Shown here in pieces: positions 14,406 through 37,564 of a stretch of 64,000 nt of DNA; positions within the stretch are counted from its first letter, which is position 1, and the number at the start of each line of letters is the position of its first letter. The position numbers and the translations under genes are program-made. This DNA comes from Nitrosophilus labii. Its GTDB lineage: Bacteria; Campylobacterota; Campylobacteria; Campylobacterales; Nitratiruptoraceae. The DNA is taken from contig NZ_AP022827.1 of assembly GCF_014466985.1 (NCBI RefSeq), positions 1 through 64,000 of the forward strand. The letters are read 5' to 3'. The notes under the pieces were generated by a model that did not search any database, was not told the origin of the DNA, and saw nothing but the letters and a program-made list of their open reading frames with translations.

Positions 14406-14570
14406 TTGCGATTAAGTATCAACGTTGGAAGCAAAATAAGAGAGTTAAGAAAAAGTCTTAAAATTTCTCAGGCTGAGCTTGGGGAGAGGATTGGTGTTAA
14501 GCAACGTACAATAAGCGCTTGGGAATCAAACCAAAATGAACCGCCACTTGATGCATTACTACAAATGTAA
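14406..14570 (+). pseudogene. XRE-family regulator truncated by transposon insertion
   Basis: A helix-turn-helix Cro/C1-type N terminus (VGSKIRELRKSLKISQAELG ... RTISAWESNQNEPPLDALL) starting with TTG after AAGAAGGAGAATAC. After 54 codons the frame runs into the Tn7-like left end, whose first bases TGTAA finish the last ATG and supply the TAA stop. The helix-turn-helix survives; anything C-terminal is lost. Confidence 0.75.
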
Positions 14571-14713
14571 TTATTCAAATATAATTTCACCAAATTTTTC
14601 CTTGAAATCGCTTAATTTGGAAATTTTACCATAAATAAAAAAAGAAATTATTCAAATATATTTGCACTGTTATTCTAAATTAGATATACTAAATTATATT
14701 TATTCTAATTTAT
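14566..14713 (+). repeat. transposon left end A with four TnsB-type boxes
   Basis: Terminal TGTAA followed by TTATTCAAAT at 14571, TTATTCAAAT at 14648, TTATTCTAAA at 14670 and TTATTCTAAT at 14700. The 22- and 30-bp spacing of the inner three recurs in left end B. Such arrays are the binding sites of TnsB transposase and here also span the tnsA1 promoter, so TnsB binding probably represses tnsA1. Confidence 0.8.
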
Positions 14714-14740
14714 CTATAATTTCTTATGTAAGGTTAGTTA

Positions 14741-15337
14741 ATGAGAATTAGAGAGATACCTATTCAAACTAGATCAGTTGCAGGTAATTTTTTCAGCTAC
14801 AAAAACAAAAGAGTTGTAAAATTTGAATCTCAATTAGAGAAAAAATGTTTTTTATTTTTAGAGTTTGATAAAAGTATTCAATCATATATAGAACAGCCTT
14901 TAAATATTGGAAGATATGTTCCCGATGTATTAGCCAAAAGAAATAACAACAAAAATTTGCTTATAGAAGTTAAATATTACGATGAAGTAGAAAAAATGGA
15001 CGAAAGACTTGAAAGAAAAATCAATACTCTTCAAGAATATTGCGATAAAAACAATTTAGAATTTAAATTTTTTACTGAGAAAGATATTGAAGAACCTTAT
15101 TTTTCCAATATATCTTTTATCTATAATTATGCGGGTATAACATTATCTGAAGATGAAAAGAAAAAAATAATTAGTTATATTCAAAAATATAATGGAGTAT
15201 CTTTAAACAAATTGGCAAAGGAAGGTTTCAATATGGCTTTCATCTACAAGATGATATTTGACGAAATCTTAGATATCAATCTCTTTAAAAAACTCTCAAC
15301 TGATTCGATAGTAAGGATTAACTATGATAGAACTTAA
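14741..15337 (+). CDS. tnsA: TnsA1, PD-(D/E)XK transposon-end endonuclease
   Basis: 198 residues. The TnsA core is visible: FESQLEKKCFLFLE with the catalytic Glu, YVPDVLAK with the Asp, and LLIEVKYY with the ExK pair. The C-terminal helical domain (SLNKLAKEGFNMAFIYKMIF) is also present. TnsA cuts the 5' ends of the transposon, giving cut-and-paste movement together with TnsB. Base composition is AT-rich, unlike the second pair. The stop overlaps the tnsB1 start by 14 bp, implying coupled translation. Confidence 0.88.
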   Translation: MRIREIPIQTRSVAGNFFSYKNKRVVKFESQLEKKCFLFLEFDKSIQSYIEQPLNIGRYVPDVLAKRNNNKNLLIEVKYYDEVEKMDERLERKINTLQEYCDKNNLEFKFFTEKDIEEPYFSNISFIYNYAGITLSEDEKKKIISYIQKYNGVSLNKLAKEGFNMAFIYKMIFDEILDINLFKKLSTDSIVRINYDRT

Positions 15338-16913
15338 AATAGGTAAAACTATATCTTATAAAGATAAAAAGTATGTTATTCATCAGATCCTTGATATTGA
15401 CACTATTGTGATAAAAGAAATTAAAACAAATTTATTCAAAACCATTAAAATAAGCGAATTAAATGACAATCCAAAATCTTTGTCATTAAAACCTATAGAA
15501 AGTATTGAAGAAAAATATCTCAAAATTGCTAAAGAGAGACTTGAAATCATAAAACCTTTATTGGAATCAAGAACTAAAAAGGATGTTGAGGAAATAGCAA
15601 AAAAATCAGGCAAAAGCATAAAAACTATTTACGATTGGATAAAACTTTATAAAAACAGTGGAAACAATCTATTAGCTCTGGTTCCGAATTATTCCCAAAG
15701 AGGAGGAAGAGGAAAGTTTAGAATTAGTAAAGAACAAGAACGGATAGCTTGGGAAATTATAGATAGCAACTATCTAAGTGTTCAAAAACCATCCATAGCT
15801 CACGTTCATGAACTTATTAACGCAAAACTGTATGAACAAGGATTGAAAAAAATCAGTTATGCAACCGTATGGAGAATGGTGTCTCAAATCGACGAAAGAT
15901 ACGCATTCAAAAAGAGAGAAGGCAACAAAAAATTTGCAAATTTAATTGAAGAATCACCTAATACCTTTGAAGCAAAATATCCTCTAGAGATTGTCCAAAC
16001 AGACCACACACCTTTAGATATTCAAATAGTAGATGAAACCTATAGAAAACCGATAGGACGTCCAACTCTTACACTAGCAATAGATGTTTATAGCAGAATG
16101 ATTTACGGTTTTTGCCTTACACTTGAAGCTCCAGGGTTGTATTCGGTTGGAAAAACCATTTATATGGGACTAATTTCAAAAGAAAACTATTTAAAAGAGT
16201 TGGGAATCGAAGGAGAATGGAAAATTTATGGAATTCCAAATACTATTCATGTAGATAACGCTAAAGAGTTTAGAAGCAAAGGATTGGAAACTTTTTGTTC
16301 AGTTATGGGCATAAATCTTGAATTCAGACCAAAAGGACGTCCTAAAAGCGGAGGACATATAGAAAGAGCTATTAAAACTTTTAATATACAAATTCATAAA
16401 TTGAAAGGTACCACTTTTTCAAATCCTCAAGAAAGAGGAGATTATGATTCTGAAAAAAATGCAATATTTACTCTAAAAGAGCTTGAAAAGTATCTCACCG
16501 AATGGATAGTAAATTATTATCATAAAAAACCGCATAAAGGACTTAATGGTTTAACGCCAGAAGAAAAGTTTCAAGAAGGTCTTTATGGTGATTCAGAAAA
16601 TCCACCAGTTGCTTTAAGAATGCTTCAAAGCGAAGAGGAAAAAAGATTTGCAAAAATATCTCTTTTACCGTTTGAAGAAAGAACCATTCAAAAAGCGGGA
16701 GTTGAACTTTTTGGAGTTAAATATTACGATGAGTCTCTTATCCCTTTTATAACTCCACCAAAGAGTAAAGAGAAATATATATTTCGATACGATCCTTATG
16801 ATTTAAGAAAAATTTATTTCTTCCATCCAGATTTAAAGGAATATATTGAAATCCCAGCAAAAAAGAGATTTTTACCAGCTATCTCAAAATGGGATGTAAG
16901 TTTCCAAATATAA
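15324..16913 (+). CDS. tnsB: TnsB1, DDE transposase truncated at its C terminus by a second transposon end
   Basis: 529 residues. Helix-turn-helix regions (SGKSIKTIYDWIKLYKNSG) precede an rve catalytic core with about D227 (QTDHTPLD), D311 (IHVDNAKEF) and E347 (GGHIERAI), a DD(35)E spacing, and a beta-barrel domain. It ends at ...KWDVSFQI. The last six residues are encoded by the terminal bases of left end B (TGTAAGTTTCCAAATATAA), and the ~80-residue basic tail seen in TnsB2 is absent. In Tn7 the TnsB C terminus contacts TnsC, so TnsB1 may bind ends and hold catalytic residues yet fail to engage TnsC. Confidence 0.85.
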   Translation: MIELKIGKTISYKDKKYVIHQILDIDTIVIKEIKTNLFKTIKISELNDNPKSLSLKPIESIEEKYLKIAKERLEIIKPLLESRTKKDVEEIAKKSGKSIKTIYDWIKLYKNSGNNLLALVPNYSQRGGRGKFRISKEQERIAWEIIDSNYLSVQKPSIAHVHELINAKLYEQGLKKISYATVWRMVSQIDERYAFKKREGNKKFANLIEESPNTFEAKYPLEIVQTDHTPLDIQIVDETYRKPIGRPTLTLAIDVYSRMIYGFCLTLEAPGLYSVGKTIYMGLISKENYLKELGIEGEWKIYGIPNTIHVDNAKEFRSKGLETFCSVMGINLEFRPKGRPKSGGHIERAIKTFNIQIHKLKGTTFSNPQERGDYDSEKNAIFTLKELEKYLTEWIVNYYHKKPHKGLNGLTPEEKFQEGLYGDSENPPVALRMLQSEEEKRFAKISLLPFEERTIQKAGVELFGVKYYDESLIPFITPPKSKEKYIFRYDPYDLRKIYFFHPDLKEYIEIPAKKRFLPAISKWDVSFQI

Positions 16914-17039
16914 TTTGACCATTGAAATCCTATAAATAAGTAATTACGGTATTTTATCAAAATAAATTTTCCAAAATTATTTGGACTTTTTTACTAAATT
17001 AATTGGACTAAATATAAAATTGCTATAATTAGTTGGACT
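16895..17039 (+). repeat. second transposon left end (B), nested at the 3' end of tnsB1
   Basis: TGTAAGTTTCCAAATATAAT at 16895 matches left end A at 22 of its first 26 positions. Inner boxes share the core TTGGACT at 16981, 17003 and 17033. Their 22- and 30-bp spacing is identical to left end A, where the core is TTATTC. This is a homologous end from a related transposon with changed TnsB recognition. It also serves as the leader of tnsA2. Confidence 0.78.
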
Positions 17040-17060
17040 AACATAATTAAGGGAACATGA

Positions 17061-17639
17061 ATGCCGGTTAGAAAAATTCCTATACAAACCCGTTCAAAAT
17101 CAGGATATTTCTACAGTTATAAAAACGGACGATCAATAGCTTATGAATCTCTTTTGGAGAAAAAATGCTTTCTGATGCTTGAATTTGAGGAAGAGATAGC
17201 CTCCTATGAGGAACAACCGTTAAAAATCAAAAACTATATACCCGATGTCCTTGCCAAAACGAAAGACGGTAAATACATTTTGATTGAGGTTAAATACTCT
17301 CAAGAAACCGAAAATCCGGATAAAAAGCTCTCAAAAAAATTTGATGTTCTTGAAAAATATTGTAATAACATCGGGTGGAAGTTTAGACTATTTACGGAAA
17401 AAGACGTTAAAGAACCCTATTTTTCAAACCTCTCTTTTATATATCGCTATATAACACTGAAACCCGATGAAAAAATTTTGTCATACGTAGACAGGATCGG
17501 AGAAACCAATATAGCGAAACTGTTGGAATACGGTTTTGACGCCTCGGATATTTACGCCCTCATAGCTCAAGGCAGGATGCAAACAAATCTGTATAAAAAA
17601 CTCTCTCCCGAATCCAGAATAAGGATAGGCAATGCGTAA
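17061..17639 (+). CDS. tnsA: TnsA2, second transposon-end endonuclease
   Basis: 192 residues, clearly homologous to TnsA1 throughout. The catalytic set is YESLLEKKCF, YIPDVLAK and ILIEVKYS. Codon use is richer in G and C than tnsA1 and the later cargo, suggesting a different source. It overlaps tnsB2 by 8 bp. It lies directly downstream of left end B, the normal position of tnsA in a Tn7-like element. Confidence 0.88.
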   Translation: MPVRKIPIQTRSKSGYFYSYKNGRSIAYESLLEKKCFLMLEFEEEIASYEEQPLKIKNYIPDVLAKTKDGKYILIEVKYSQETENPDKKLSKKFDVLEKYCNNIGWKFRLFTEKDVKEPYFSNLSFIYRYITLKPDEKILSYVDRIGETNIAKLLEYGFDASDIYALIAQGRMQTNLYKKLSPESRIRIGNA

Positions 17640-19458
17640 ACTGACGGCCGGCGAAACGGTGTTCTATCAAGGAAAACCGTATATTATCGAAGGTTTCGAG
17701 AATCTGGACAAAATTGTATGCAAAGATACGAAAGGAAACTTCAAAATATTAAATATCACGGAACTTGACGAAGAACACCAAGGAAAAGAACAAAGTTATC
17801 CGCCTCCCGTAGAAAGTTTGAATGACAAGTTTTATCAAACGGCTTTAAAAAGACTTGAAATCATAAAACCTCTGCTACAAGCCAGAAGCAAAAAGGCGGT
17901 CAGAGAAAGAGCAAAAGAATACGGATATTGCGCACAGACACTCTATAACTGGATCAACGCCTATATCGAAAGCGGAAACAGCATTCTCGCTCTTATGCCA
18001 AAATACGAAAAAAGAGGCGGAAAAGGAAAAACGAGAATCGGAAAAGAACAGAAAAAAATAATCGACGAGATAATTCTAAACAGATATCTTTCCCGGCAAA
18101 AAATAACCGTTGCTCAAATCGTAAGAGAAATCAACGCCATCTTTTACAAAAAAGGACTGGAACCCGTTTCTTATAATACCGTCAACCGAATCATAAAACA
18201 GATAGACGAAAGAACAGCATACAAGAGTAGAGAGGGTAGAAACAGGTATCTCAACAATCTAAAACCCTCAGCCAACTCTTTCGAGGTATCCCGTCCCCTC
18301 GAAGTCATACAGATAGACCACACCCCTCTGGATTTGCAGATAGTAGACGAAACATACAGAAAACCTATCGGGAGGCCGTATTTGACTCTGGCTCTGGACG
18401 TTTACAGCAGAATGATCTACGGCTTTCATCTTACGTTAGACGCACCAAGCCTCTATTCAGTAGGACAGACTCTTTATATGGGTCTTCTTCCGAAAGAAGA
18501 GTATCTGCAAAAAACAGGTATAAAAGGAAAATGGAATATATTCGGGATTCCCGATACCATTCACGTTGACAACGCAAAAGAGTTTAGAAGTAGAGGACTG
18601 AAAACTTTTTGTGAAATATTCGGTATCAATCTTGAATTTCGTCCGAAAGGCATGCCTTTTTTCGGGGGACATGTGGAAAGAGTCATCAAAACCGTAAATA
18701 TGCATGTCCATTCGCTAAGCGGAACCACGTTTTCCAATCCTCACGAAAGGGGAGACTATAAATCGGAGAAAAAAGCGGTCTTCACTCTGAAAGAGCTCGA
18801 AAGTTACATCGCTGAATGGATAGTAAATATATATCACAAAACTCCCCACAACGGATTAGACGGCATGACTCCCGAAGATAAGTTCTCCGAAGGATTAAGA
18901 GGAGAAAACGGCCTTCCCGTACCGATAAGAATTCTCGACAGCGCCGAAGAGAAAAAATTCGCAAGAATTTCTCTTCTTCCTTTCGAGGAAAGAAAAATAA
19001 CGAAACAGGGAGTTTCCCTTTTCAAACTTAGATATTATGATGAAGCTCTGTCGGTGTTTATTAGACCGAAAAGCAACGACAAATATATATTCCGATACGA
19101 TCCGAAAGATTTAAATCAAATTTATTTCTATCATCCCGATTTACGGGAGTATATAGAAATACCCGGCGTTAAAAAGCTCTATCCCCCTCCTACGAAATGG
19201 GAACTGGATACCGTTGCGAAAGAAACCAAGAGATACAGACAAAGAGAGATACATAACGAAATGGTATACGATGCCATACTAAGATTACGAAAAAGAGAAG
19301 AGGAAGCCTCGAAAAAAACAAAGCAGGCCAGAAGAAAAAAAGAGAACAGAAAGATACGGTCTCCTTTGTCAAATAAGGAGCAACAAAATACGAGAAAACC
19401 GGTTTCGGGCACAGCCAAACCGAAAATAAAAAAATTCGATATAGATTTCGAAGACTAA
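17632..19458 (+). CDS. tnsB: TnsB2, full-length DDE transposase
   Basis: 608 residues. The catalytic core has about D229 (QIDHTPLD), D313 (IHVDNAKEF) and E349 (GGHVERVI), again DD(35)E. Beyond the point where TnsB1 stops there is a basic, helical tail of about 80 residues (KETKRYRQREIHNE ... KKFDIDFED). In Tn7 the corresponding region recruits TnsC. The gene is GC-richer than tnsB1. It is probably the active transposase with TnsA2 and TnsC, although its preferred boxes (TTGGACT) differ from those at the outer ends. Confidence 0.88.
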   Translation: MRKLTAGETVFYQGKPYIIEGFENLDKIVCKDTKGNFKILNITELDEEHQGKEQSYPPPVESLNDKFYQTALKRLEIIKPLLQARSKKAVRERAKEYGYCAQTLYNWINAYIESGNSILALMPKYEKRGGKGKTRIGKEQKKIIDEIILNRYLSRQKITVAQIVREINAIFYKKGLEPVSYNTVNRIIKQIDERTAYKSREGRNRYLNNLKPSANSFEVSRPLEVIQIDHTPLDLQIVDETYRKPIGRPYLTLALDVYSRMIYGFHLTLDAPSLYSVGQTLYMGLLPKEEYLQKTGIKGKWNIFGIPDTIHVDNAKEFRSRGLKTFCEIFGINLEFRPKGMPFFGGHVERVIKTVNMHVHSLSGTTFSNPHERGDYKSEKKAVFTLKELESYIAEWIVNIYHKTPHNGLDGMTPEDKFSEGLRGENGLPVPIRILDSAEEKKFARISLLPFEERKITKQGVSLFKLRYYDEALSVFIRPKSNDKYIFRYDPKDLNQIYFYHPDLREYIEIPGVKKLYPPPTKWELDTVAKETKRYRQREIHNEMVYDAILRLRKREEEASKKTKQARRKKENRKIRSPLSNKEQQNTRKPVSGTAKPKIKKFDIDFED

Positions 19459-19468
19459 AGGATATAGC

Positions 19469-20377
19469 ATGACTCAAAAAGAATATCTCGGCGAGCTTCC
19501 GGAAAAGACGAGAAAGGTATTGAAATGCGGTAAAAAAGAGAGGATCGAATTTATCAAAAAACCAAAATTCATCAGACACCCCAAAGCGCTCAAACTGTTT
19601 AAAAAACTTACAGATCTGATGAACGAACCGAAAAAAGACAGGATAAGATCCATTCTCCTCGTTGGAGATTCAAACAACGGAAAAACGGCAATGGTAAAGA
19701 AATTTTACGAGATGAACGTATATAAAAACGACGACGAAATGCTCTTTTTCGAACACGTGATGCTGATTCAGGCACCAAACAGAGCCGATCTGCACGATCT
19801 TTACAATAAAATGTTCCAGTTTTTCGTGGTTCCTTACCGAAAAGACGAACCGATAAGCGAAAGAGAGAACAAAATAAAGCATTACTGCGAAGTCAATCAG
19901 GTTCGAATGATCATTATAGACGAAATTCAGGGTGCACTAATCGGAAGCATAACCAAACAGATGGAATTTATGAACGGAATAAAAAACCTCTCCAATATTC
20001 TGAAAATCCCTATAGTTTTAGTAGGAACTCCCAAAGGGGTAAGCCTCGTAAGCTCCGATCATCAGCTAAAAAGCAGATTCGTTCCGACGAAAATCAAAAA
20101 GTGGGAATACGATGAAGACTATCTGTCTCTGCTTTATGCAATCGAGATGACACTTCCTTTAAAAAAACCTTCTCTCATTTACGAAAACGAGAGACTCGCC
20201 AAAGAGATCCTGGAACTCAGCGACGGACTAATCGGAGATATTGTCACTATATGCGAACTTTTGGCTATTGAAGCAATTGAGAGCGGAAAAGAAAAGATAG
20301 ACAAAAAAATGCTCAAAGAAATAGAGTATGTCCCCGCATATGACAGAGAAGGCGTTATCTATGCCGACGAAATCTAA
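19469..20377 (+). CDS. tnsC: TnsC, AAA+ transposition regulator
   Basis: 302 residues. Walker A is LLVGDSNNGKT (about 63-73) and Walker B MIIIDEIQG (about 147-154), with a sensor region GTPKGVSLV and an arginine-containing KSRFVPTK. TnsC/TniB ATPases form filaments on target DNA and link the target selector (TniQ or TnsE) to TnsAB, also imposing target immunity. Only one tnsC is present for two tnsAB pairs. It overlaps tniQ by 17 bp. Confidence 0.87.
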   Translation: MTQKEYLGELPEKTRKVLKCGKKERIEFIKKPKFIRHPKALKLFKKLTDLMNEPKKDRIRSILLVGDSNNGKTAMVKKFYEMNVYKNDDEMLFFEHVMLIQAPNRADLHDLYNKMFQFFVVPYRKDEPISERENKIKHYCEVNQVRMIIIDEIQGALIGSITKQMEFMNGIKNLSNILKIPIVLVGTPKGVSLVSSDHQLKSRFVPTKIKKWEYDEDYLSLLYAIEMTLPLKKPSLIYENERLAKEILELSDGLIGDIVTICELLAIEAIESGKEKIDKKMLKEIEYVPAYDREGVIYADEI

Positions 20378-21569
20378 GTTTCATCCCGAAAAAGGATATC
20401 TTTTTAAAATAGTCTACAGGGATAAAAAATTTAAAGAAAAATTGGCAAAAACCGTAATCAAAAACAGAGTCAAACCATATCCCGATGAACTATTTACCTC
20501 CTGGATAGCAAGAAACGCTACAATGAATTTCTTACAAACACCAACTTTTATCAATTACTATTTCCCTGAATATAAAAATAAATTCCTAAATAGAGATACG
20601 GATATTTTTGTCAATCAAGAGATAGCCAACAATTTTGCAAAGCGAATGTTACTGGATGAAAAAGATGTTTTTAATACCTCATTGCAAAGCTACAGCGGTT
20701 TTCTAAACGAAATAATAGATTCTAAAACCAGAAACCACCTTATAACACCGGTAAAAGTAAGAGGAAGCTATCCACGTATAAAAGGACTAAGATATTGTCC
20801 GCAATGTCTGCAAGAACAGGAATATTTCAGAAAAGAGTGGAGATTAAGCTTCTATATGGTTTGTCTAAAACATAAAAACTTTCTCATAAACGAATGTCCT
20901 CAATGCGGGGAACCGATATTTTTGGTAAAAAGAAAATTGGATACAAAATCATTTAATTGCTGGAATTGCGGATTTATCTATAAAGAAGCCGAAACGGAAA
21001 AAATCCATCACAATTCAAAAGGCATATATTATCTTTCAAAAGCGACCGAAATACTGTATAGGGGATATTTTGTATATAACAGCAAATGGTATTATTCGCC
21101 TTTCTATTTCCGTATTCTAAAACATATGGCAAAACTCATATATCTTTCAGGCTATAGAAATTTGGATATTTTGGAAAAAGAGATTAAGCTACACAATGTT
21201 AAACTCAAGAATACAAGGGAACTCGGAGGAAAGTTTTTAGAAGAAATCATTTCTCTCAAAGAAGCATTTGCAGTCTTTACAGCTTCTATTTCAATTCTCT
21301 CTTCTCCTATAAATTTACAACGATTTATCAATTCAAATAAAATCTCATATGCTATTCTCAAACGAGATTTAAATTATATACCTTTTTGGTATGAGAAAAC
21401 GATTTGGCAATATAAAAAACAAGCCCATTTCGTAACTATTGAAGAAGTTAAAAATGCTTGTTCTTGGATGAAAAAAAATGGAATAGAGCTTTCTTATTCA
21501 AGTTTATCAAGAGTGTTAGGAATCAAGATAGAAAGAAGAAAAAGACCAGAACTCGCTACTCTAATGTAA
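20361..21569 (+). CDS. tniQ: TniQ/TnsD-family target selector
   Basis: About 402 residues. It begins with the TniQ signature (PYPDELFTSWIARNATMN) and a zinc-binding region RYCPQCLQEQEYFRKEWRL ... CLKHKNFLINECPQCGE, then a second pair CWNCGF. The C-terminal region is helical and basic. TniQ proteins bind the attachment site and recruit TnsC. The start at 20361 overlaps tnsC; ATG 20328 is less likely. Composition changes from GC-richer to AT-rich within about the first 150 bases, a possible recombination joint. Confidence 0.83.
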   Translation: MPTKSKFHPEKGYLFKIVYRDKKFKEKLAKTVIKNRVKPYPDELFTSWIARNATMNFLQTPTFINYYFPEYKNKFLNRDTDIFVNQEIANNFAKRMLLDEKDVFNTSLQSYSGFLNEIIDSKTRNHLITPVKVRGSYPRIKGLRYCPQCLQEQEYFRKEWRLSFYMVCLKHKNFLINECPQCGEPIFLVKRKLDTKSFNCWNCGFIYKEAETEKIHHNSKGIYYLSKATEILYRGYFVYNSKWYYSPFYFRILKHMAKLIYLSGYRNLDILEKEIKLHNVKLKNTRELGGKFLEEIISLKEAFAVFTASISILSSPINLQRFINSNKISYAILKRDLNYIPFWYEKTIWQYKKQAHFVTIEEVKNACSWMKKNGIELSYSSLSRVLGIKIERRKRPELATLM

Positions 21570-21942: not shown

Positions 21943-22431
21943 ATGGTAAAGAAATGTTTACCTAGTATGTCATTAACTAATGATTATCTAGTTTGTAAAA
22001 ATCAAAATGCAGTGGATATAATCATCTCTATCAAACCAAAATATGTTGAAAAAATCTTAAACAAAGAAAAACTATATGAATTTAGGAAAGTAATTTTCAA
22101 AGAAAAAAATATTAGAAATATATTTATTTATGCATCATCGCCTATTAAAAAAATTGTAGCTATTTGTGAATTTGAAAGAGTAATTGAAGGAACCCCTCAA
22201 AAAATATGGGAAATATGTCGGGAATATGCAGGAATAACTGAGGAAGAATTCTTTTCTTATTTTAGCAACAGAGAAAAAGCATATTCAATTAAATTAAAAA
22301 ACATCAAGAAGTTACATAATTATTTTGATCCGTATCAATACTTGGAAAATTTCAGACCTCCTCAATCATTTATGTATGCGGATATAAAATTTATACTCTC
22401 TTTTAAACAATCTTCATATGTATTACACTGA
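21943..22431 (+). CDS. ASCH/PUA-like domain protein
   Basis: 162 residues. The first half has the ASCH pattern: ISIKPKYVEKILNKEKLYEFRK, given in part as ISIKPKYVEKILN followed by YEFRK, then IFIYASSP and IVAICEFERV. ASCH domains bind RNA or modified nucleotides. The gene is convergent with the kinase-like gene and overlaps its 3' end by 70 bp, so mutual antisense effects are possible. It belongs to a group of ASCH, kinase and GNAT genes. Start preceded by AAGGAGTATGATAAG. Confidence 0.65.
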   Translation: MVKKCLPSMSLTNDYLVCKNQNAVDIIISIKPKYVEKILNKEKLYEFRKVIFKEKNIRNIFIYASSPIKKIVAICEFERVIEGTPQKIWEICREYAGITEEEFFSYFSNREKAYSIKLKNIKKLHNYFDPYQYLENFRPPQSFMYADIKFILSFKQSSYVLH

Positions 22432-22925
22432 TTGAAATTAATTTCTTTAAAGGGCAACTTTAAAATCTTGGCTACTTCTTTCGCCCAACTTAATTCCTCA
22501 TCTTGCATGGTTTCTAATAAATTAATAGTAAAAGAATGATTAGGTGCCCGAATATTAAGTCGTTTTATTATTTCTTTTGGCTTATCTAGTAATAGTATTA
22601 TACCATTCACTTGCAATGCCATATATGTTTCTATACCTATTCGTTTGATATTTCCTTTTTCATCTAATAATACAAAATGACCATCAAGTAATATATTGTC
22701 TTTTTCTCTCTCTTTTTTTAACCCTTCAATTAGCAATTTTTGATTTATATCTATATCTTTAACTTTTTTATGCTCAAATTCTTTAAAAGCATAATTTTTG
22801 TATTTTTTTATAATTTCACTTGCACTCAAATGTTTCAAACTTCCATTATATATTTCGGTCAATTTATTACAAAAAGTTGTTTTTCCTACCCCATGTATAC
22901 CGCCAACAAAGACTACTTTGCCCAT
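22362..22925 (-). CDS. P-loop kinase-like protein
   Basis: 187 residues with a P-loop VFVGGIHGVGKTTFCNKL at the N terminus and a Walker-B-like ILLDGHFVLLD, followed by IILLDKPKEIIKRLNIR (a lid-type basic segment). This is the adenylate/nucleotide kinase-like P-loop type also seen in tRNA- or nucleoside-modifying clusters. It lies directly downstream of the GNAT-ASCH fusion (the genes abut), so it is cotranscribed. Substrate unknown. Confidence 0.65.
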   Translation of the reverse strand: MGKVVFVGGIHGVGKTTFCNKLTEIYNGSLKHLSASEIIKKYKNYAFKEFEHKKVKDIDINQKLLIEGLKKEREKDNILLDGHFVLLDEKGNIKRIGIETYMALQVNGIILLLDKPKEIIKRLNIRAPNHSFTINLLETMQDEELSWAKEVAKILKLPFKEINFNQCNTYEDCLKESINFISAYIND

Positions 22926-23975
22926 TTAGAGCCCTATGATTAACCTCTCGTCAACATTAGCATCTATTATTATCTGTTTCAAAAATTCTTTTGGTATTTC
23001 AAAAAATCCCCAATAATTAGGAATACCAAAATTCTTTTCTATATATTCTTTAATTAAACGTTTTTTGAATGCCACATTATACGTCATTCTGACTACTTTT
23101 TTATCACCAGTTTTGTATTGATACATTAATTCATTTCTAGTAAAAACAGAATATGGTTTGCAGTATATGTAAAAATCTGAAAAATCTCGAAACTCATCTT
23201 GATGTTTTTTCTCTAAGACTACACATAAAGAAGTCAGGACGGAACTATATCGTGCACTTTGTCTTCCTTTATCTTTTGTCCTATAAATAACTAATACATC
23301 TCCTGGCTTTAACTTCTGTAATCCGTGAATTTTCGCTATATAATTTTTAAAAATACCATTCGTATGGGAAATATCTCGAATAATTTCATCAGAATTTTCC
23401 GTTTTTAATTTTGAATCAGGAAATAACCTTGTATGATATTCTGGATAAATGCCTAATACATATATTTTCGTTTCATCTTTTATTTCAACTAACGGATAAC
23501 GTTCTGTTAAATTACCTTCGAGTTTAAACATCTCTTTTACAAATACACTTTCTTGTCCTTTAGAGCCATAATATTTTAAACCAAATTCTTCAAAAAGTTT
23601 AACAAGTTGTGGATGTTTCTCCTTGTATGTTGTAACATACAAACATCTTGCATTATTCTCATAAGCATAGTCAATTGCTATTTTAAGGAACCTCTCACCT
23701 AGTCTTGTACCATGTGGATCTACTTTAAAAGTCCCTATTTTTATCTTTTTACCATTAGGAAGTGGTGGGTAAACATCATTAACGGTATCTTCTTCTTTTA
23801 GGTACAAAAATGCCTGGAGACTCCCATCATCTCGATTTAAAATAAAAGCTTTTGCACCTTCCTTTCCTTTTCGTTTAAACCATTTGGGGAAATCTGAATA
23901 ATCCCTCTTTAAGCTATCAAAAAATGGATCATTTAAATTTATTTCTGCAAATTTTTTAATTTCAATATATTTCAT
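22926..23975 (-). CDS. GNAT acetyltransferase fused to an ASCH/EVE-like domain
   Basis: 349 residues. The N-terminal ~150 are GNAT-like: KIGTFKVDPHGTRLGERFLK, given in part as FKVDPHGTRLGERFLK, carries the R/QxxGxG/A acetyl-CoA loop. The C-terminal half (GDVLVIYRTKD, SSVLTSLCVVLEKK, YWGFFEIP) has the beta-barrel layout of ASCH/PUA-like domains. The fusion suggests acetylation of a nucleic-acid target recognised by the ASCH half. It is flanked by a kinase-like gene and a second GNAT gene. Confidence 0.65.
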   Translation of the reverse strand: MKYIEIKKFAEINLNDPFFDSLKRDYSDFPKWFKRKGKEGAKAFILNRDDGSLQAFLYLKEEDTVNDVYPPLPNGKKIKIGTFKVDPHGTRLGERFLKIAIDYAYENNARCLYVTTYKEKHPQLVKLFEEFGLKYYGSKGQESVFVKEMFKLEGNLTERYPLVEIKDETKIYVLGIYPEYHTRLFPDSKLKTENSDEIIRDISHTNGIFKNYIAKIHGLQKLKPGDVLVIYRTKDKGRQSARYSSVLTSLCVVLEKKHQDEFRDFSDFYIYCKPYSVFTRNELMYQYKTGDKKVVRMTYNVAFKKRLIKEYIEKNFGIPNYWGFFEIPKEFLKQIIIDANVDERLIIGL

Positions 23976-23983
23976 AATAAATC

Positions 23984-24499
23984 CTATTTTGAAAACTCAT
24001 TGAAAAAATATTCATATTTATCTTTACGATATAGCCCCTTTTTCTTAGATGTCATTTTAAATCCATAATAATCAAAGATTCTTTTAAACTGTTCATATTT
24101 TTCTTCTGATACAGTTAAAAAAGGTTTATCAGTTTCTAACTCTTCAAAAGCTCTTTCAAAAAGTTTTATTCCAATACCTCTATTTTGATAATTATCAATT
24201 ACGCGGAGAGTACATAATTTTTTCTCATTTAAGGAATGTTTAATAATAGCAATTCCAGCAATATCTGTATCTCTCTTTTCTATTAAAAATTTCCTATTCT
24301 GAAAAGATAAACCTGGAAGCACTTTTCCAAAATACCATAAATCAAATTTAGGATAGTACAGTTTAGCTTCTTTAATTAAATTATATATTTCAATACCTTT
24401 TATATAGTAACAATTTCCCGAAAACTGTCTATATGAATAATCTGTTAATAAATTATATTTTGGTTTTACCCCTTGTCTCTTTATTAATACAGATTCCAT
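23984..24499 (-). CDS. GNAT-family N-acetyltransferase
   Basis: 171 residues. The acetyl-CoA site is LRVIDNYQNRGIGIKLFERA, with the expected RGxG loop, and the end has FDYYGFKMTSKKKGLYRKD. It is separated by 8 bp from the GNAT-ASCH gene and 1 bp from the membrane-protein gene, so it lies in an operon. Target unknown. Confidence 0.7.
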   Translation of the reverse strand: MESVLIKRQGVKPKYNLLTDYSYRQFSGNCYYIKGIEIYNLIKEAKLYYPKFDLWYFGKVLPGLSFQNRKFLIEKRDTDIAGIAIIKHSLNEKKLCTLRVIDNYQNRGIGIKLFERAFEELETDKPFLTVSEEKYEQFKRIFDYYGFKMTSKKKGLYRKDKYEYFFNEFSK

Positions 24500-24500
24500 A

Positions 24501-25496
24501 TCATATCCTTTGATTTATTTTATCTAACCATATCGTTATGCCAATAATCACACCAATAATAAACCTCTCTAAATTTATCCAATCAGCCAAAATGCTTCCT
24601 AGAGCACCTAATAATATTATAACTATACAAGTTATGATTAGAGCTCTTAAATTAAAATTTATATATTTTATTTTTACAAAAAGATTAAAATCACTAATAT
24701 TCTTCTCAACCTTCCCAACCTTATTTCCTTTGAACCAATGATATGCGATAACTTTTTCTATATCTGTTTTTTTATCCAACGCATAATAATTATTCACATT
24801 ATCAAACTTAATATAATCGTCCCAAATATGATTTTCAAGAATCCTAGCGTCTTTTAAACCAAAATTTTCAAAATATATATCTACAGAATTATTAAACATT
24901 AAAAATACATGAATTCGTTTAAATGAGTGGGAGTGTTCCCCCATTTCCAAAGCAATTTGTTCTGGCATTTTCCTTATATTATTAATATTGAGCTCAAAAA
25001 TACCACTCTTTCTAAATATCCCTTCAAAATAACTAAGATTTTCATCTATAAGCTTTACTAATTTGTCAATTCTATATATTCTAAATCGTATATAACTCTT
25101 TGAGTGTCCCTCTATATCTTCAGGGAAAAGATCTATCAAACTTCCACCATTTTCAACATCATCAATTGAAAATTGGACACCCGACAAATAAAATTCTGGA
25201 TGTAAATAATGGTTCATTTTAACTAAATTATTATTTAAAGACTCAATAGTCGTATTAAATAATGCTCCAAGAAGTTTTTCATCATTTCTAAGTCTAGTTT
25301 CAACAATATCTTCAACCATACTCTGTTCAACTCTAAAAGGTACATATAATTTAATATTGTTTATCAATGTGGCATCATACTTAAAACCAAATTCTATATA
25401 GTTTTTATATTTATTTTCTTTGTCGTACCAAATATTTAAATGACATTCGTCTATAGACGTGTCTTGATTTTCCAACCAAATAGCAAACGAGTTCAT
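24501..25496 (-). CDS. C-terminally anchored membrane protein of unknown function
   Basis: 331 residues. A soluble N-terminal ~270 residues of no recognised family is followed by two hydrophobic segments near the C terminus (ALIITCIVIILLGALGSILA and FIIGVIIGITIW). Tail-anchored membrane proteins next to a nucleotide-hydrolase gene often act as effectors in defence operons. That idea comes from context only. Confidence 0.55.
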   Translation of the reverse strand: MNSFAIWLENQDTSIDECHLNIWYDKENKYKNYIEFGFKYDATLINNIKLYVPFRVEQSMVEDIVETRLRNDEKLLGALFNTTIESLNNNLVKMNHYLHPEFYLSGVQFSIDDVENGGSLIDLFPEDIEGHSKSYIRFRIYRIDKLVKLIDENLSYFEGIFRKSGIFELNINNIRKMPEQIALEMGEHSHSFKRIHVFLMFNNSVDIYFENFGLKDARILENHIWDDYIKFDNVNNYYALDKKTDIEKVIAYHWFKGNKVGKVEKNISDFNLFVKIKYINFNLRALIITCIVIILLGALGSILADWINLERFIIGVIIGITIWLDKINQRI

Positions 25497-25523
25497 TCTT
25501 GTCTTCTTAATTTAAAATTGACT

Positions 25524-25739
25524 CTAAATACGAATATATTTTCTTTCTCTAGGTATATAACGAAGGAAGTTATTACTTTCTAAGAAATCCAAATAATCCC
25601 TTATTGTTACACCCGGTGCTATTCTCATCACACCATTTTCTTTACGGATTTCTTCAATGACACTATCATAAGTAAATTCATTTTTTTCTAAAATAAGTCT
25701 ATTAACTATTTGTTCGGATCTTCTATATTTTTTACACAT
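25524..25739 (-). CDS. small winged-helix-like protein
   Basis: 71 residues (FTYDSVIEEIRKENG ... IRDYLDFLESNNFLRYIPRE), a compact winged-helix pattern. It lies between the membrane-protein gene and the HD gene in the same leftward operon and may regulate it or be a subunit. No family named. Confidence 0.5.
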   Translation of the reverse strand: MCKKYRRSEQIVNRLILEKNEFTYDSVIEEIRKENGVMRIAPGVTIRDYLDFLESNNFLRYIPRERKYIRI

Positions 25740-25752
25740 GTAAACCTCCCTT

Positions 25753-27660
25753 TTATAATTCTATTGAAATTTGTTCGATGAAAAAATCTTTGAGCATTTT
25801 TTCTATCTCCTTAGGTGAAACAGAAACATCTATTGAATAAAAAACATAAAATGGAATAAATTCATATTTCTCACGTATTAATATCCTTGCTTTCAAGGAG
25901 AGCTCATAATAATTGATCTTTTCTCTCTTATTTCTAAGATTTATCAAAGAAAAGTAATTTTTAGTCGGAGGAGATGCTAATTTAGTTTGTGCAAGATATA
26001 TAAATAAATGGTTCTCTCTAAACTTTTCTTCTATTTTGTATAATATTTGAGGTTTTATTTCTAAAGATTGACGGATAAATTTTATTACACCATAATTTGG
26101 ATTTTTTTTGTAATCTTCTTTTAATTCTATAAAAGATTTACTAATTGTTGTATCACTAAATAGCCCTGCATCTAATTTTACTAGTTCTGCACCCAGTTCT
26201 TTTAAAAAATTTTGTGCATCATACTCTTTTTTCCATAAAGATTTTATTTTCTTTGATCCAGTAAATATTTCATTTAATAACAAAAACAATTCTTCGGGCA
26301 TCTCTGTCTCTGATATATAAGAATTAATTAATTTCTCTTTGATATAAGATAATAACCAATAGTCAGTCATCTGACTAGTTTTAAAAAAGATTCTCTCGAT
26401 TTTTTTTAATGAATTTATATCATTATTAATATCAAATACTAATATTTCATTAATTGTTGAAATCATATCCGTTAATGTTTTAATTTCAAGCGTATCAGAT
26501 TTATTATAATCTTTTAATTCTTCTTCTAATAAAATCCGTATTGTATTCAATAAAAGATGATCATATCTTCTGACTTTATGATGATTTATAACTACTTTAT
26601 AAATATGGGTTCTATCAAGGAAGAAATCATCTATATCATAAAGAGCTTGGATAGAAGGAAAAAATTTAAAATTATCAGAAAAATCTGTTGATTCCCTTTT
26701 ATCTAAACAAAATGTTTTAATTATTCTATCAACATCAGCTCCATCTTTAATAAGAGATGTTGCATATCCGTCTCTCAACGTATAATCAACTCTATCTGCA
26801 TCACAATCACCTGATATTATTTCGACGAGAGAATATAGAGAGCTATCTTTGTGTTTATAAAATTCTAGTAATATCTTTCTTAGCAAAAAAAATATTAATG
26901 CATATCCCGCTTTCTCTTCTTTGGTCATTGCATATTTTTCAGCAAATTGTTGTTCAATATACTTCATTAACATTAAACTTAATTTTTTTCCAATCGTCTC
27001 GTGTAACTTATCTTCAGTTTCAGATAATCGGTAAAAAAAATCAAAAAAAGATTCATCTTTAATTTCAATACGTTTATCTGAAATTTTATCTGCCAAACTT
27101 TCTAAAGAAAATTCAGTTAGATGGCTAAATGGCATATGCCCAAAATCATGTAATAACCCATAAAGTCGTAATGATATTAAAAGTAAAAAATATGAAACAT
27201 AGTATGCATCATCTTTAAAAATATCAGAATAAAACATAAAATTTTTTACAAAAGAATTACTTAATAAGTGTACTATTAAAGGACGTAATTTATCATATTG
27301 TAATTTTTCATTATCAAAAAGATACTGAATACATCTATCCCCATCAATGGAAAGCTCAAGTCTAATATATTCTTTGATCTCTTTAATATTACTTTCAATA
27401 AAATTTATTTTATTTTGAATATACTCTGCAAAAACTTTCTCATCACTATTTTTAATTCCATAATAAAAAATTTGAGAAGCAATATGCATTACACCAATAC
27501 TATGCGCAAAACGAGAAGTTTTATTTGTAGGATAGACCATATAAGCCATTGAATTTTGAAGAATATGATGTAGCCTATTAAATAATAGATTAGAAAATAT
27601 CTCTGATTCAAGATTAGAATAAATTATATTATTATGAATTTGATCTTTAATTAATTTCAT
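25753..27660 (-). CDS. HD-domain phosphohydrolase, SAMHD1/COG1078-like
   Basis: 635 residues. The HD motifs are in order: RFAHSIGVMHIA (first His), LLHDFGHMPFSHL (the HD pair and following His), HETIGKKL, and SGDCDADRVDYTLRDG (the last Asp, typical of COG1078/SAMHD1 relatives). Members hydrolyse dNTPs or related nucleotides; some block phage by depleting dNTPs. The C-terminal ~300 residues are unassigned. It heads a three-gene leftward operon with a winged-helix and a membrane protein. Confidence 0.75.
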   Translation of the reverse strand: MKLIKDQIHNNIIYSNLESEIFSNLLFNRLHHILQNSMAYMVYPTNKTSRFAHSIGVMHIASQIFYYGIKNSDEKVFAEYIQNKINFIESNIKEIKEYIRLELSIDGDRCIQYLFDNEKLQYDKLRPLIVHLLSNSFVKNFMFYSDIFKDDAYYVSYFLLLISLRLYGLLHDFGHMPFSHLTEFSLESLADKISDKRIEIKDESFFDFFYRLSETEDKLHETIGKKLSLMLMKYIEQQFAEKYAMTKEEKAGYALIFFLLRKILLEFYKHKDSSLYSLVEIISGDCDADRVDYTLRDGYATSLIKDGADVDRIIKTFCLDKRESTDFSDNFKFFPSIQALYDIDDFFLDRTHIYKVVINHHKVRRYDHLLLNTIRILLEEELKDYNKSDTLEIKTLTDMISTINEILVFDINNDINSLKKIERIFFKTSQMTDYWLLSYIKEKLINSYISETEMPEELFLLLNEIFTGSKKIKSLWKKEYDAQNFLKELGAELVKLDAGLFSDTTISKSFIELKEDYKKNPNYGVIKFIRQSLEIKPQILYKIEEKFRENHLFIYLAQTKLASPPTKNYFSLINLRNKREKINYYELSLKARILIREKYEFIPFYVFYSIDVSVSPKEIEKMLKDFFIEQISIEL

Positions 27661-27903
27661 AATATAAATGCCCCTTTCTTTTCATATTTTAATTTAATTT
27701 ATTTAAATTTTTCTTTATTTCTATCTTTTATAGATACAAATTTTTTCAATAAAACTCCCAACCTATCTTTTTCAAATCCCCCTTTAATATACTTCTATGG
27801 AATATGAAAAGAGGCCTACTTCTTATAATTTATTTCTATGATTTTTAAGAGATTTATTGCTATTTTCTTAATAGATACTTTTTCACATTAACACTATTCC
27901 AGT

Positions 27904-28599
27904 TTAATCACAACCATTAAATTCTTTGATAGTCGATATTATTTCTTTATAATCTATTTTACTATCTAGTTTATCCCTTAAAAACAGCATTTTAAAGACT
28001 TGTAATAAATAAAAAACACCGTAGATCGTTATTATAGAATTTGCAATAAGAAAAAATAAACTCATAGAAATTATAATCCCTATTTGAATTAGATTTAATT
28101 TTACTATAAACGGTATAATCATTAATAATAAGCTCACATTTCTATAAAATATCCTCATTCCAACTATATCTTGATAATATCCAATTTTTTGCGGACAATG
28201 CACAGAGAGAAAATGTTCTATTAATTTAACAATTTTGTAAAAATTTTCTTCATTAAGTTTATAAAATTCTATAGTATCTTTGATTTGAAAATGTTCATCC
28301 GTACCAAGTAATAAGTATTTTTCTATTGACCATAACTTGCCATTTTTAATAGATAACACAACATCTTTTGTAACGCGTGTTTGAAAAAAACCTAACAGTA
28401 TCCAACTACTGATATTTACCAATATTCCAACTGGAGTAGATGCCAATATGAAAAACATTATCATAAAATTATGTTCCATATAGTTTGGATATTGAGATAA
28501 AAAAAGTAATATTATTGCAAAGCCAATACTTGTATCTGCTAAAAATCTTCTATAACTAAACTTTATTCCAGAAGTGGATAATTCTATGTTATTTTTCAT
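27904..28599 (-). CDS. multi-pass membrane protein of unknown function
   Basis: 231 residues with about four transmembrane segments in two pairs (GFAIILLFLSQY, MIMFFILASTPVGILVNISS; LLLMIIPFIVKL, IGIIISMSLFFLIANSIITI) separated by a soluble loop of ~80 residues. No family recognised. It lies downstream of the large methyltransferase but after a hairpin, so it may be transcribed separately. Confidence 0.55.
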   Translation of the reverse strand: MKNNIELSTSGIKFSYRRFLADTSIGFAIILLFLSQYPNYMEHNFMIMFFILASTPVGILVNISSWILLGFFQTRVTKDVVLSIKNGKLWSIEKYLLLGTDEHFQIKDTIEFYKLNEENFYKIVKLIEHFLSVHCPQKIGYYQDIVGMRIFYRNVSLLLMIIPFIVKLNLIQIGIIISMSLFFLIANSIITIYGVFYLLQVFKMLFLRDKLDSKIDYKEIISTIKEFNGCD

Positions 28600-28608
28600 T
28601 AGACCTTT

Positions 28609-28644
28609 TACGCTCGAAAAGTTATCGTTTGCACGATAAGCGTA
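28609..28644 (-). terminator. hairpin downstream of the restriction-methyltransferase
   Basis: Nested stems TACGCT/AGCGTA and TTATCG/CGATAA between two leftward genes. No strong T-run is seen on the transcribed side, so it is a possible pause or processing site rather than a firm terminator. Confidence 0.4.
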
Positions 28645-28658
28645 TATCTTCCTTCCTT

Positions 28659-31600
28659 TTACTTGTATCTATCCGAAGATGCCAAACTTGCAAACAGCCC
28701 CCTCTTTTTCTTTCCGGAAAATGGGAGTTTTGGTTTTATATGTTTTAAGTATGGATCATGCTTCATCTCTTTTTGAATATATCTAATTTCATCTTCGCTC
28801 AACCCAAAACACTTGCCAACAATCTCATCTATTTGATAGATGATGTTTTCTACAATGCTAGCATATTCCCCTTGATCATATTTTTTAATTTCTTCTACAA
28901 ATTCATTCAAGGCATCATCGTTTTCTGGCACCTTAATTCTCAGTAAATCAGACTTTTTCATTACTTTGCCGTGATATATCGTCAAAGTTGCACCAAAAGC
29001 TTTAGCGGCAAACTCGTTTCCTATCTCTATAAAGGTAAATACATCATCGGTTAAATATATCCTATAGGCATCTCCATGTTTACTTGGGTTTTTAATTTCT
29101 GGAGCATTGATCTGAATTTTTCTGTCATCGTCTATTTCGCTCCATTTGACTCCCCATGTGTTATTGGATGCCCCTAAGTCTCTGCATAGTTGTGTAAAAG
29201 GTTTTGCTCCAATTTTTTCTAAAATATCCATCAATGCTTCTTCTCGATTGTGCAAGGCTTTGCAAGCTTCGTAATATTCTTTCCTTTTGGCTTCAATGTC
29301 ATCCGAATAAACTGAAAGCTTATCGCTCCATGGCAGCCATTTTAGATTTAATGGATAGACATGACTATAATACTGCTCTACCACTCCCATTCTTGCATAT
29401 ATTCCATAAAAGAATTGATAAACACTAGATAAAATTAAAAGATCAAAAGGAAAATCTCGTAGCTCTTTTGATGGAAAAAATAGAGTTGCGGTGTCAAGGA
29501 AAGCTTCTTTTTTTGGTTTAAAACGTGCAGCTGTTAGTCCTAATGAAATTTGTAAAAATGCAAAACCATAATTTGGCAGGATATCTAAATATCTCCATAA
29601 AGAAGGATCGTCTACATTTAAAATATCAATATTGTTTTCAGCGGGCTCCCCCTCTATAAGTCCAGCTGCTATATTTTCACCCTTGTATATATTAAAACCG
29701 TTATCTTTTTTTGGTTTTTTACCTCTAAATACTGCTCCTCTAGCAATGCCTGTTCTTTCTTCTATCTTGTCATTCTCTTCCATCCCTTGAAATTCAGGAA
29801 GAAGTCCATATTGAATAATTCTATTTTTTCTAGTAAGCACCCAATATCTAAAAGCAATATCCTCAAATGTTTTGTATTGCAACAGTTTGTCTATAATTTT
29901 TTTTCTTTCGCTGTTTATTTTTGTAAGGATCCTACCATCTTTGCTCCATACATCCATATATTTAAAATCTGCATACGGCGCTTTGTTTAAGTCTATATCT
30001 CCAGATTCTAGAAGTGATTCCGTTCCGGCTATTTTTATTCTAATTACATCATCTTCGGATGCGGGTTCGTTTTTGGCTATAAAGATAATTGGCTGCACGG
30101 AAGCATCGAACACATATTCCGATATCGCTTCCATATCCACAATCTCAACAATTTTCCATCTTTGCTTAAAAGGCAAAAAGAGCTTTCTTAGATTGCTATT
30201 TGATTTATTGTCGCAAAATGAAAGAGGTATGACATATCCAAGATACGCCCCATCTTTACACCAAGATTTCAAAGCTCTGTATATGAAAAGAGTAAAAAGA
30301 TTTTTATCGATCTTTATATCTTTTGAATAGAATTTGGCCACATCTTTTGAAAAATCTTCATCTTTTCTTTCCGGACGGACAAAGGGAGGATTTCCGATAA
30401 CCGCGTCATACTCTTTTTTATCGATTTTTACATAAGTGGAGTATTCTGAGCTCAATATATCGGCAGGTATCAAGGAGTTATGTTTTTCAGCGATATAGAG
30501 TCTTGGAAATCCATGATTCAATATATCTTTTTTAAAAGCTAATAGATGCCACAGAATCTGTATTTGCGCTATCATCGAGGAGAAAGGATTTATATCGTTT
30601 CCCCTGATATGAGAGAGCTCTTCTACCGCTTCTTCATACGTAACTACTCCCGCATCTATATGTTCGCCGATAGTTTTATTGAATACCTCCAGTAAAAAGG
30701 TGCCCGATCCGCATGCGGGATCCAATACGACATCATCTCTATCTATCTCTATTCTGTCGATTATATATCTTGCAACGCTTGGTTTGGTGTAATATTCTCC
30801 TAGTTTTTTTCGTTGGGAGCCTTCCAAAAATCTATCGTAAATACCCGTTAGAATATCGCCTCTTATCGTTGTAAAATCAAATTTTGAGAAGTGCATAAGA
30901 GAGAGCTCTATTGCTTGAGAAAGTCGTTCGTTTTCGCTTCCAAGAACCCAGTCAAGCTCCATTTCTTCAAATACCGAATAGTAGATCGTTTTTGCTTTTT
31001 CGTAAACATCCTTGAGCAGTTTCATGTAAGTCAGCTCAAAATACTCTCTCATCATCTGGAAAGCTTTGATACCGCCATTACACAAATATCTTTTCTCTCC
31101 AAAAAATCCGTGATCCTCGAAGAAACGAAGCAAAAGAATTCTTGCTAATATCATATTTGCCGTCTCGATGGCAAAAAGTTCTTGTATAACCTCCTCTTTT
31201 TTCTTTCCAATTCTTGATCTAAACTCAGGAAGCCATACAAGTGCCAGTTTGGCGATGGAGATATTTGACATCACCTTTTCTTTGATACGCTCTACATCTT
31301 CATCATGCTCAAGTGCTCTTTCATAACCTATTACCTGTCCTTGCAGCTCAAAGGGCTCCAAAGAGAGCTTTTTGACTCCATCATATTTTTCTTCAAAATC
31401 ATCGATAGCTTTTAAAATCTCTTCAATTTTTGGCTGCACATCCTCTAGAGCCTCCTTTGTGGCGCTTTGAAGAAGAATGGTTGCTCTTTTGATGGCATGA
31501 AAAAATTCTTGTTTGGCTTTCTCCGCCCTTTTTTGTTCTGCTTTAGTAGTATCCTGCGGTTTAAGGGAAATAACAGCTATAGAAGAGGTATCTCCGGTTC

Positions 31601-32120
31601 TAAACTTATCCAAAGCTACTTTTATTGAGGATTTATCGGCGGCTATACTAGCGGTTTGCTCTTTGAACCATTGATCATTGTGTTTTAGCGCCTCTTCCCA
31701 CTCTATAACTATATCTTTACTGCTGTCGTAATTCAAGGAGCTTCCTACCGTAACAGGACGGATGACCATCCTTTCCGGATCGATCATAATGAAATAGTTG
31801 GTATCGAGGGTGATATATTTTTCTTTGTCTTTTAATATCTTGTTTCTGCTTCCAGGGGTTTTGAATGCGGTTCGTTCATCTTTTACTTCGCAAACTACCC
31901 AATCACCAAGAATAGGTTTTCCTTTTTCTTTGGTACCTACTTCTGTCTTGATAACTAAATCGGGTATCCCCTGTCCCAGTTCACTTCCAGAATCTACGAT
32001 AATATTTTTTGATTTGTGTCCCAAGGATTCAAAAATACTTTTGATACTGGGATACATATTTCTTTCATAACCGGATTTTGTTTCTTTGATTTCTTTAATA
32101 TGTTCCTGCAACTTGCTCAT
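28659..32120 (-). CDS. type IIG-like restriction-modification protein (nuclease plus N6-adenine methylase)
   Basis: 1153 residues. The N terminus has a PD-(D/E)XK nuclease: GIPDLVIK then DWVVCEVKDERTAF. A helical linker follows, then the methylase core with motif I VVLDPACGSGTFLLEVFN (about residue 470) and motif IV VIGNPPFVRPERKD (about 560), and a target-recognition region. One polypeptide with both activities is the type IIG layout. It would protect a host carrying the transposon from phage, a common cargo role in Tn7-like elements. The first 499 codons are duplicated at 45.8-47.3 kb. Confidence 0.8.
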   Translation of the reverse strand: MSKLQEHIKEIKETKSGYERNMYPSIKSIFESLGHKSKNIIVDSGSELGQGIPDLVIKTEVGTKEKGKPILGDWVVCEVKDERTAFKTPGSRNKILKDKEKYITLDTNYFIMIDPERMVIRPVTVGSSLNYDSSKDIVIEWEEALKHNDQWFKEQTASIAADKSSIKVALDKFRTGDTSSIAVISLKPQDTTKAEQKRAEKAKQEFFHAIKRATILLQSATKEALEDVQPKIEEILKAIDDFEEKYDGVKKLSLEPFELQGQVIGYERALEHDEDVERIKEKVMSNISIAKLALVWLPEFRSRIGKKKEEVIQELFAIETANMILARILLLRFFEDHGFFGEKRYLCNGGIKAFQMMREYFELTYMKLLKDVYEKAKTIYYSVFEEMELDWVLGSENERLSQAIELSLMHFSKFDFTTIRGDILTGIYDRFLEGSQRKKLGEYYTKPSVARYIIDRIEIDRDDVVLDPACGSGTFLLEVFNKTIGEHIDAGVVTYEEAVEELSHIRGNDINPFSSMIAQIQILWHLLAFKKDILNHGFPRLYIAEKHNSLIPADILSSEYSTYVKIDKKEYDAVIGNPPFVRPERKDEDFSKDVAKFYSKDIKIDKNLFTLFIYRALKSWCKDGAYLGYVIPLSFCDNKSNSNLRKLFLPFKQRWKIVEIVDMEAISEYVFDASVQPIIFIAKNEPASEDDVIRIKIAGTESLLESGDIDLNKAPYADFKYMDVWSKDGRILTKINSERKKIIDKLLQYKTFEDIAFRYWVLTRKNRIIQYGLLPEFQGMEENDKIEERTGIARGAVFRGKKPKKDNGFNIYKGENIAAGLIEGEPAENNIDILNVDDPSLWRYLDILPNYGFAFLQISLGLTAARFKPKKEAFLDTATLFFPSKELRDFPFDLLILSSVYQFFYGIYARMGVVEQYYSHVYPLNLKWLPWSDKLSVYSDDIEAKRKEYYEACKALHNREEALMDILEKIGAKPFTQLCRDLGASNNTWGVKWSEIDDDRKIQINAPEIKNPSKHGDAYRIYLTDDVFTFIEIGNEFAAKAFGATLTIYHGKVMKKSDLLRIKVPENDDALNEFVEEIKKYDQGEYASIVENIIYQIDEIVGKCFGLSEDEIRYIQKEMKHDPYLKHIKPKLPFSGKKKRGLFASLASSDRYK

Positions 32121-32225
32121 ATTTTTCCCCTAATTTAACAGAATTACAGCCCAATGTTAAATTAAATTATCTTATTTTCTTCCTTAAAGTAGAATCGATT
32201 AATTGTCTATTCTTAATTTCAACTT

Positions 32226-33785: not shown

Positions 33786-33840
33786 TGTAAGTTCCTTTTA
33801 AAATAGCAGAAATACAAGAAATAATTAATTTGAAGATTTA

Positions 33841-33910
33841 AGTAGTGTAAATATATTTGAATAATTGTAGATAATTGTGAATAAAATGTAATTATATTAG
33901 AATACTTACA
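33841..33910. repeat. transposon right end with three TnsB-type boxes
   Basis: Reading inward from 33910 on the minus strand the sequence begins TGTAAGTATTCTAATATAAT. TATTC cores appear on the plus strand as GAATA at 33900, 33879 and 33859, spaced 21 and 20 bp. The innermost box AATTATTCAAATATATTT matches the box at 14645 of left end A, so this end is A-type. Confidence 0.8.
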
Positions 33911-37459: not shown

Positions 37460-37545
37460 GAACTAATACAAAAACAGGGTGAACTAATACAAAAACAGGG
37501 TGAACTAATACAAAAACAGGGTGAAAAAAAATACAAAAACAGGGT
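37460..37545. repeat. origin iterons for the Rep protein
   Basis: Three identical 21-bp units (GAACTAATACAAAAACAGGG plus T) at 37460, 37481 and 37502, then a degenerate 23-bp unit keeping ATACAAAAACAGGGT, then a partial GAGCTAATAC. Direct repeats immediately upstream of a Rep_3 gene next to AT-rich DNA are the standard iteron origin layout. Confidence 0.88.
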
Positions 37546-37564
37546 GAGCTAATACTATTGACAA

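Follow-up and report, generated by a model that had tools for sequence, protein, structure and literature searches.

A Tn7-like mosaic with two tnsA-tnsB pairs and a chimeric tniQ in Nitrosophilus labii

Gene content and setting of the locus

We analysed a window of 64,000 nucleotides, positions 1-64000 of the 102,672-bp contig C2 of Nitrosophilus labii, whose genome is assembled in two contigs, the other of which (C1) is the 1.99-Mb chromosome. Pfam searches identified F-type transfer genes and a Rep3 replication gene on C2, which we therefore take to be a conjugative plasmid. Tandem 21-bp repeats, probable plasmid iterons, were found directly 5' of the Rep3 gene (37460-37560). A search for relatives of the backbone among plasmids returned a sole match of 207 bp, to two Nitratiruptor plasmids.

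Parts of two Tn7-like elements, A and B, lie between 14566 and 33910, and together contain two tnsA-tnsB pairs, one tnsC and one chimeric tniQ. The left end of A (L_A, 14566-14740, with boxes at +6, +83, +105 and +135) precedes tnsA1 (14741-15337; 198 aa; Pfam Tn7_TnsA-like_N) and a truncated tnsB1 (15324-16913), within which a second Tn7-like left end, that of B, starts at 16895 (L_B, 16895-17060, with boxes at +6, +73, +95 and +125). These are followed by tnsA2 (17061-17639; 192 aa), a full-length tnsB2 (17632-19458; 608 aa), tnsC2 of the TniB family and of B type (19469-20377; 302 aa; Pfam TniB), and a tniQ that changes from B to A sequence (20328-21569; 413 aa; Pfam TniQ), all on the forward strand. 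The cargo of A (21943-32120) comprises AAA kinase-like, GNAT and Eco57I-type restriction-modification genes and a weak HD-domain match (Pfam). A tnsE-like gene encoding 519 aa (32226-33785, reverse strand) lies directly inside the right end of A (R_A, 33786-33910, reverse strand, with boxes 6, 27 and 47 from the tip), opposite in strand to the core genes, and is common to A, B and an element in a further genome, G016. Tn7-like traits are present in the arrangement of tnsA, tnsB, tnsC and tniQ in one operon, with Pfam matches for all four, and in TGT-tipped ends that bear several TnsB-type boxes and are asymmetric between left and right. Target-site duplications (TSDs) of 5 bp were identified around a chromosomal copy of A (ACCGC) and around solo B and the G016 element (CCCTC in both), and none around the plasmid copy.

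The plasmid contains a second, partial copy of A, consisting of its last 3,287 bp (tnsE and R_A) at 45820-49106, 100% identical to 30624-33910. This copy lies near traN, is exact at the R_A end, is broken on its other side inside a restriction-modification gene, and has the look of an insertion that was either one-ended or truncated. The plasmid sequences bordering L_A (14566), R1 (33911) and R2 (49107) read ACAAA, CAGAG and ACCTG, with no TSD among them. The left flank and the R1 flank fuse in frame into a single 107-aa helix-turn-helix ORF, and we found no relative closely spanning both of its halves.

Two related elements and their junction within tnsB1

The original prediction proposed a search for solo versions of both elements, and this search recovered TSD-flanked solo elements of both types. 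We directly observed an intact element A on the chromosome of the same genome (G000, C1:112372-129399; 17,028 bp; tips TGTAA and TTACA), with ACCGC on either side and a tnsB of 605 codons. Positions 14566-16894 of the window are the first 2,329 bp of this element at 100% identity, L_A and R_A are identical to its TSD-flanked ends, and tnsA1 is 100% identical to its chromosomal copy. A solo B element is present in G007, a genome from the same family and another genus (11,714 bp; TSD CCCTC; TTGGACT boxes at both ends). L_B differs from the left end of this element by one mismatch in 170 bases, while TnsA2, TnsB2 and TnsC2 share 98%, 96% and 98% of their residues with it, and the corresponding genes 95-98% of their DNA. 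TnsB2 is 57% identical to TnsB1, and TnsC2 is 87% identical to its counterpart in A. The G007 element is closely related to the donor but is not itself the donor; no further copy of TnsB2 was found in the N. labii genome.

The ends of A and B are related in sequence. Over their first 26 bases, the ends starting at 14566 and 16895 are identical at 22 positions and differ at positions 6, 8, 10 and 23. First-order Markov sequence of 5 x 102 kb, searched on both strands, contained no site within 5 mismatches, so that this match, as originally noted, is unlikely to have arisen by chance. The spacing of 22 and 30 bp between boxes is likewise real and common to L_A and L_B. The two ends had been assigned different box cores, TTATTC and TTGGACT; the ends do differ, but each string belongs to the opposite half of a single 21-bp box (TTATTCAAATATAwTTxCACT in A, TTTTCCAAATATAwTTGGACT in B), and the boxes, as variants of one box, are thus more alike than was claimed. 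A third form of the box, ending TTGATACT, was identified in the G016 element. Homology between promoters, considered as a source of the similarity between the ends, is excluded, since L_B is a real transposon end, as in the TSD-flanked solo B.

The prediction that the tnsB of a resident transposon contains the left part of a related one is borne out by an exact junction at 16894/16895. The identity to A ends at 16894 and L_B starts with the very next base of the plasmid, indicating that the stop codon of tnsB1 was created by insertion. The truncated gene encodes 523 native residues followed by one hybrid codon, for Asp, in which GA derives from A and the third base from B; the five codons after it and the stop also derive from B, giving the C-terminus W-D-V-S-F-Q-I-stop. 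The tail and stop of tnsB1 were thus correctly attributed to end B, but the stop is not the natural one of a gene that is 605 codons long when intact. Nor do relatives of TnsB1 end at the same residue, since full-length relatives extend some 76-83 residues beyond the truncated ORF. The sequence TGGGA (16890-16894), directly outside the tip of L_B, is the presumed 5-bp target site of B in tnsB1; its second copy is lost, and the right end of B (R_B) is likewise gone.

The possibility that the mosaic is an assembly chimera, made of chromosomal A and another element, was considered, as A sequence is identical over long stretches on the chromosome and the plasmid (2.3 and about 10 kb) that an assembler could cross. 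We regard this as highly improbable: the genome has no second copy of the B segment on which an assembler could have drawn, the junction coincides with the first base of a transposon end, comM flanks and TSD match up around chromosomal A, and the assembly consists of two contigs and is 100% complete.

The truncation removed 81 C-terminal residues of TnsB1, including a tail that an alignment shows to be common to full-length relatives, and the lost segment was not found elsewhere on the plasmid. In ShCAST, a C-terminal hook of TnsB contacts TnsC, and deletion of this hook abolishes transposition (PMC9371665); by analogy, TnsB1 is probably now inactive. TnsB2 is intact, yet L_B would be the sole cognate end left to it, as no B right end with TTGGACT boxes was found within the 64-kb window. 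Chromosomal A could mobilise the mosaic in trans, since L_A and R_A are unchanged, and the mosaic would be mobile only with the proteins of that copy.

These features also bear on whether the locus might be a selected, functional transposon with two transposases, TnsB1 and TnsB2, serving different ends. Every ORF is open, and an Acinetobacter plasmid record similarly holds two tnsA-tnsB pairs. There is nonetheless very little chance that this is the correct reading, given that TnsB1 has no C-terminal region or conserved tail, that the window has no B-type right end to partner L_B for TnsB2, and that the arrangement, its A parts being identical to the chromosomal copy, is too recent to reveal selection. 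The original term "two-transposase mosaic" holds for the two tnsA-tnsB pairs, but not beyond them, as the C-terminal region of TnsB1 is missing and the mosaic has a single tnsC and a single, chimeric, tniQ.

The switch within tniQ and the origin of the mosaic

On the far side of the B segment, identity to A climbs steeply past 20304, and the segment extends to about 20.65 kb. The switch from B to A is read directly within tniQ, where a scan of informative sites placed the last B-type site at 20636 and A-type sites from 20663, giving an inferred crossover interval of 20637-20662. This crossover, like the intact chromosomal A, the TnsE-like gene and the comM target, did not feature in the original prediction. 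From 20663 to the tip of R_A at 33910 the sequence is that of A, and differs from the chromosomal copy only at site 20857 and in a 117-bp patch at 23866-23982, the latter being the only difference within the cargo. This patch contains about 10 sites unlike chromosomal A within otherwise identical sequence, and resembles a gene-conversion-like tract; a search for its source within the same genome matched only the two copies of A. The start of tniQ (20387-20636) is a mixture of A-like, B-like and private sites. Together, the mixed tniQ start and the patch suggest that recombination may have happened more than once.

The mosaic very likely arose by insertion of B into tnsB1 within a copy of A on the plasmid, followed by recombination between the two tniQ genes, which deleted most of B and part of A. 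B would first have inserted whole, in the same orientation as A, so that the two tniQ genes became direct repeats. Recombination between these repeats, with a crossover at about 20637-20662, would have removed the cargo and right end of B and, from A, the distal part of tnsB1, tnsC1 and the beginning of tniQ1, leaving L_B and the B core spliced within tniQ to the cargo of A and R_A.

A one-ended event, in which L_B alone was joined to tnsB1 while the tniQ of B invaded that of A and so resolved the opposite side in a single step, B never being whole within A, is unlikely. The absence of R_B would fit such an event, and the plasmid has another insertion that is exact at one end only (45820-49106). 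The latter could equally be a truncated ordinary insertion, however, and an ordinary insertion with a later deletion between direct repeats would yield an identical product without unusual chemistry, although with R_B and the second TGGGA both absent the two routes are indistinguishable in their product.

Comparison of the solo elements indicates that their modules have different histories. Between solo A and solo B, the tnsA, tnsB and tnsE products are 38-57% identical, with silent sites near saturation (0.55-0.73), and TnsC is 87% identical, with a silent-site difference of 0.55. TniQ, in contrast, is 88% identical, with an unsaturated silent-site difference of 0.25, which suggests that elements of the A and B types had exchanged tniQ earlier than the event seen here; the mosaic would then be a further round of that process. 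In every gene, the G016 element lies at about the same distance from A as from B. The mosaic was originally described as a direct capture of diverging end recognition; this does not hold, as A and B had already diverged before they met, with TnsB 57% identical and silent sites saturated. More tentatively, insertion of one element into another and tniQ recombination may form a recurrent route of core-module exchange among comM elements, of which the mosaic would be an intermediate. The modules so swapped might, with the same reserve, be those for end recognition (tnsA, tnsB and the left end) and for targeting (tniQ and, in part, tnsC). If such exchange does recur, L_B and R_A could make a hybrid with the cargo of A and the transposase of B.

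The comM target and comparison with known Tn7-like systems

Chromosomal A and solo B break comM at the identical nucleotide, and excision of either element with one TSD restores comM ORFs of 503 (A) and 501 (solo B) codons, comM having been assigned by sequence and known motifs rather than by profile search. Three Tn7-like elements of three types (L030, L031 and G000 C1:112372-129399) occupy one comM nucleotide. A TniQ and a TnsE-like gene are present in each of these three elements, and TnsF was not detected in them. The plasmid mosaic itself is located outside comM.

The TnsE-like assignment is based on structure and distant homology. Distant homologues of the 519-aa protein, recovered by profile from other elements of the order, matched Pfam TnsE_C with a best value of 4.7e-5, below the curated cut-off. 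A structural model built from 3 sequences had a pLDDT of 47, too low for use, and one from 11 sequences reached pLDDT 64.5; Foldseek alone found nothing significant for the latter, while a second aligner gave TnsE structures (5d17, 9d5l and 5d16; Z 7.8-8.5) as the three best matches to its C-terminal part. Its N-terminal part matches OB-fold proteins, in agreement with a report of SSB-like domains in TnsE (PMC10293859). The only genes common to A and B are tnsABC, tniQ and tnsE. TnsE steers Tn7 into conjugative plasmids, and the TnsE-like protein of A and B would account for the plasmid as a target, having sent the insertion events there. A single orientation is common to A, B and the additional copy of the right end, as TnsE insertion predicts, although three cases prove little.

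The closest parallels are with Tn6022 and the AbaR islands of Acinetobacter, which share TnsA, TnsB, a TniB-type TnsC, TniQ, insertion into comM, a 5-bp TSD, and a tnsE encoded on the other strand, near the far end and distant from the core. AbaR25 carries the same ACCGC duplication as chromosomal A (PMC3691203), and plasmid and chromosomal copies, nested islands and hybrid backbones have been described for AbaR (PMC7253598), alongside the Acinetobacter plasmid record with two tnsA-tnsB pairs together. The elements here differ in that their TnsB is only about 36% identical, and in that the insertion is into tnsB itself, with two unlike types of end. They differ also in TnsF, a target selector required in AjTn6022 (PMC10293859): no match at E below 0.06 was found by tblastn in the A, B or G016 elements for the Acinetobacter gene 3' of tniQ, which was assumed to be TnsF and of which a very diverged form could escape. 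The elements are therefore not placed as full members of the Tn6022 group, and TniQ may recognise comM without TnsF. The mosaic adds a new case, resolved unusually well, to a known kind of event, in a distant comM group without detectable TnsF. Steps of core exchange in modular Tn7-like elements are seldom seen, and here one parent shares a cell with the recombinant and a related genome contains the other parent type, which makes the junctions readable to the base.

Tn7 of Escherichia coli, as described in part from general knowledge, is similar in its TGT tips, in boxes that are spaced on the left and packed on the right, in its 5-bp TSD, and in its heteromeric TnsA-TnsB, TnsC and TnsE. It differs in its use of TnsD at attTn7, in place of comM and a 413-aa TniQ, and the tnsE of the elements here lies outside the core operon. 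Finally, solo B and the G016 element share the five core genes with the mosaic, are flanked by TSDs at the same comM nucleotide, and differ from it in having single cores.
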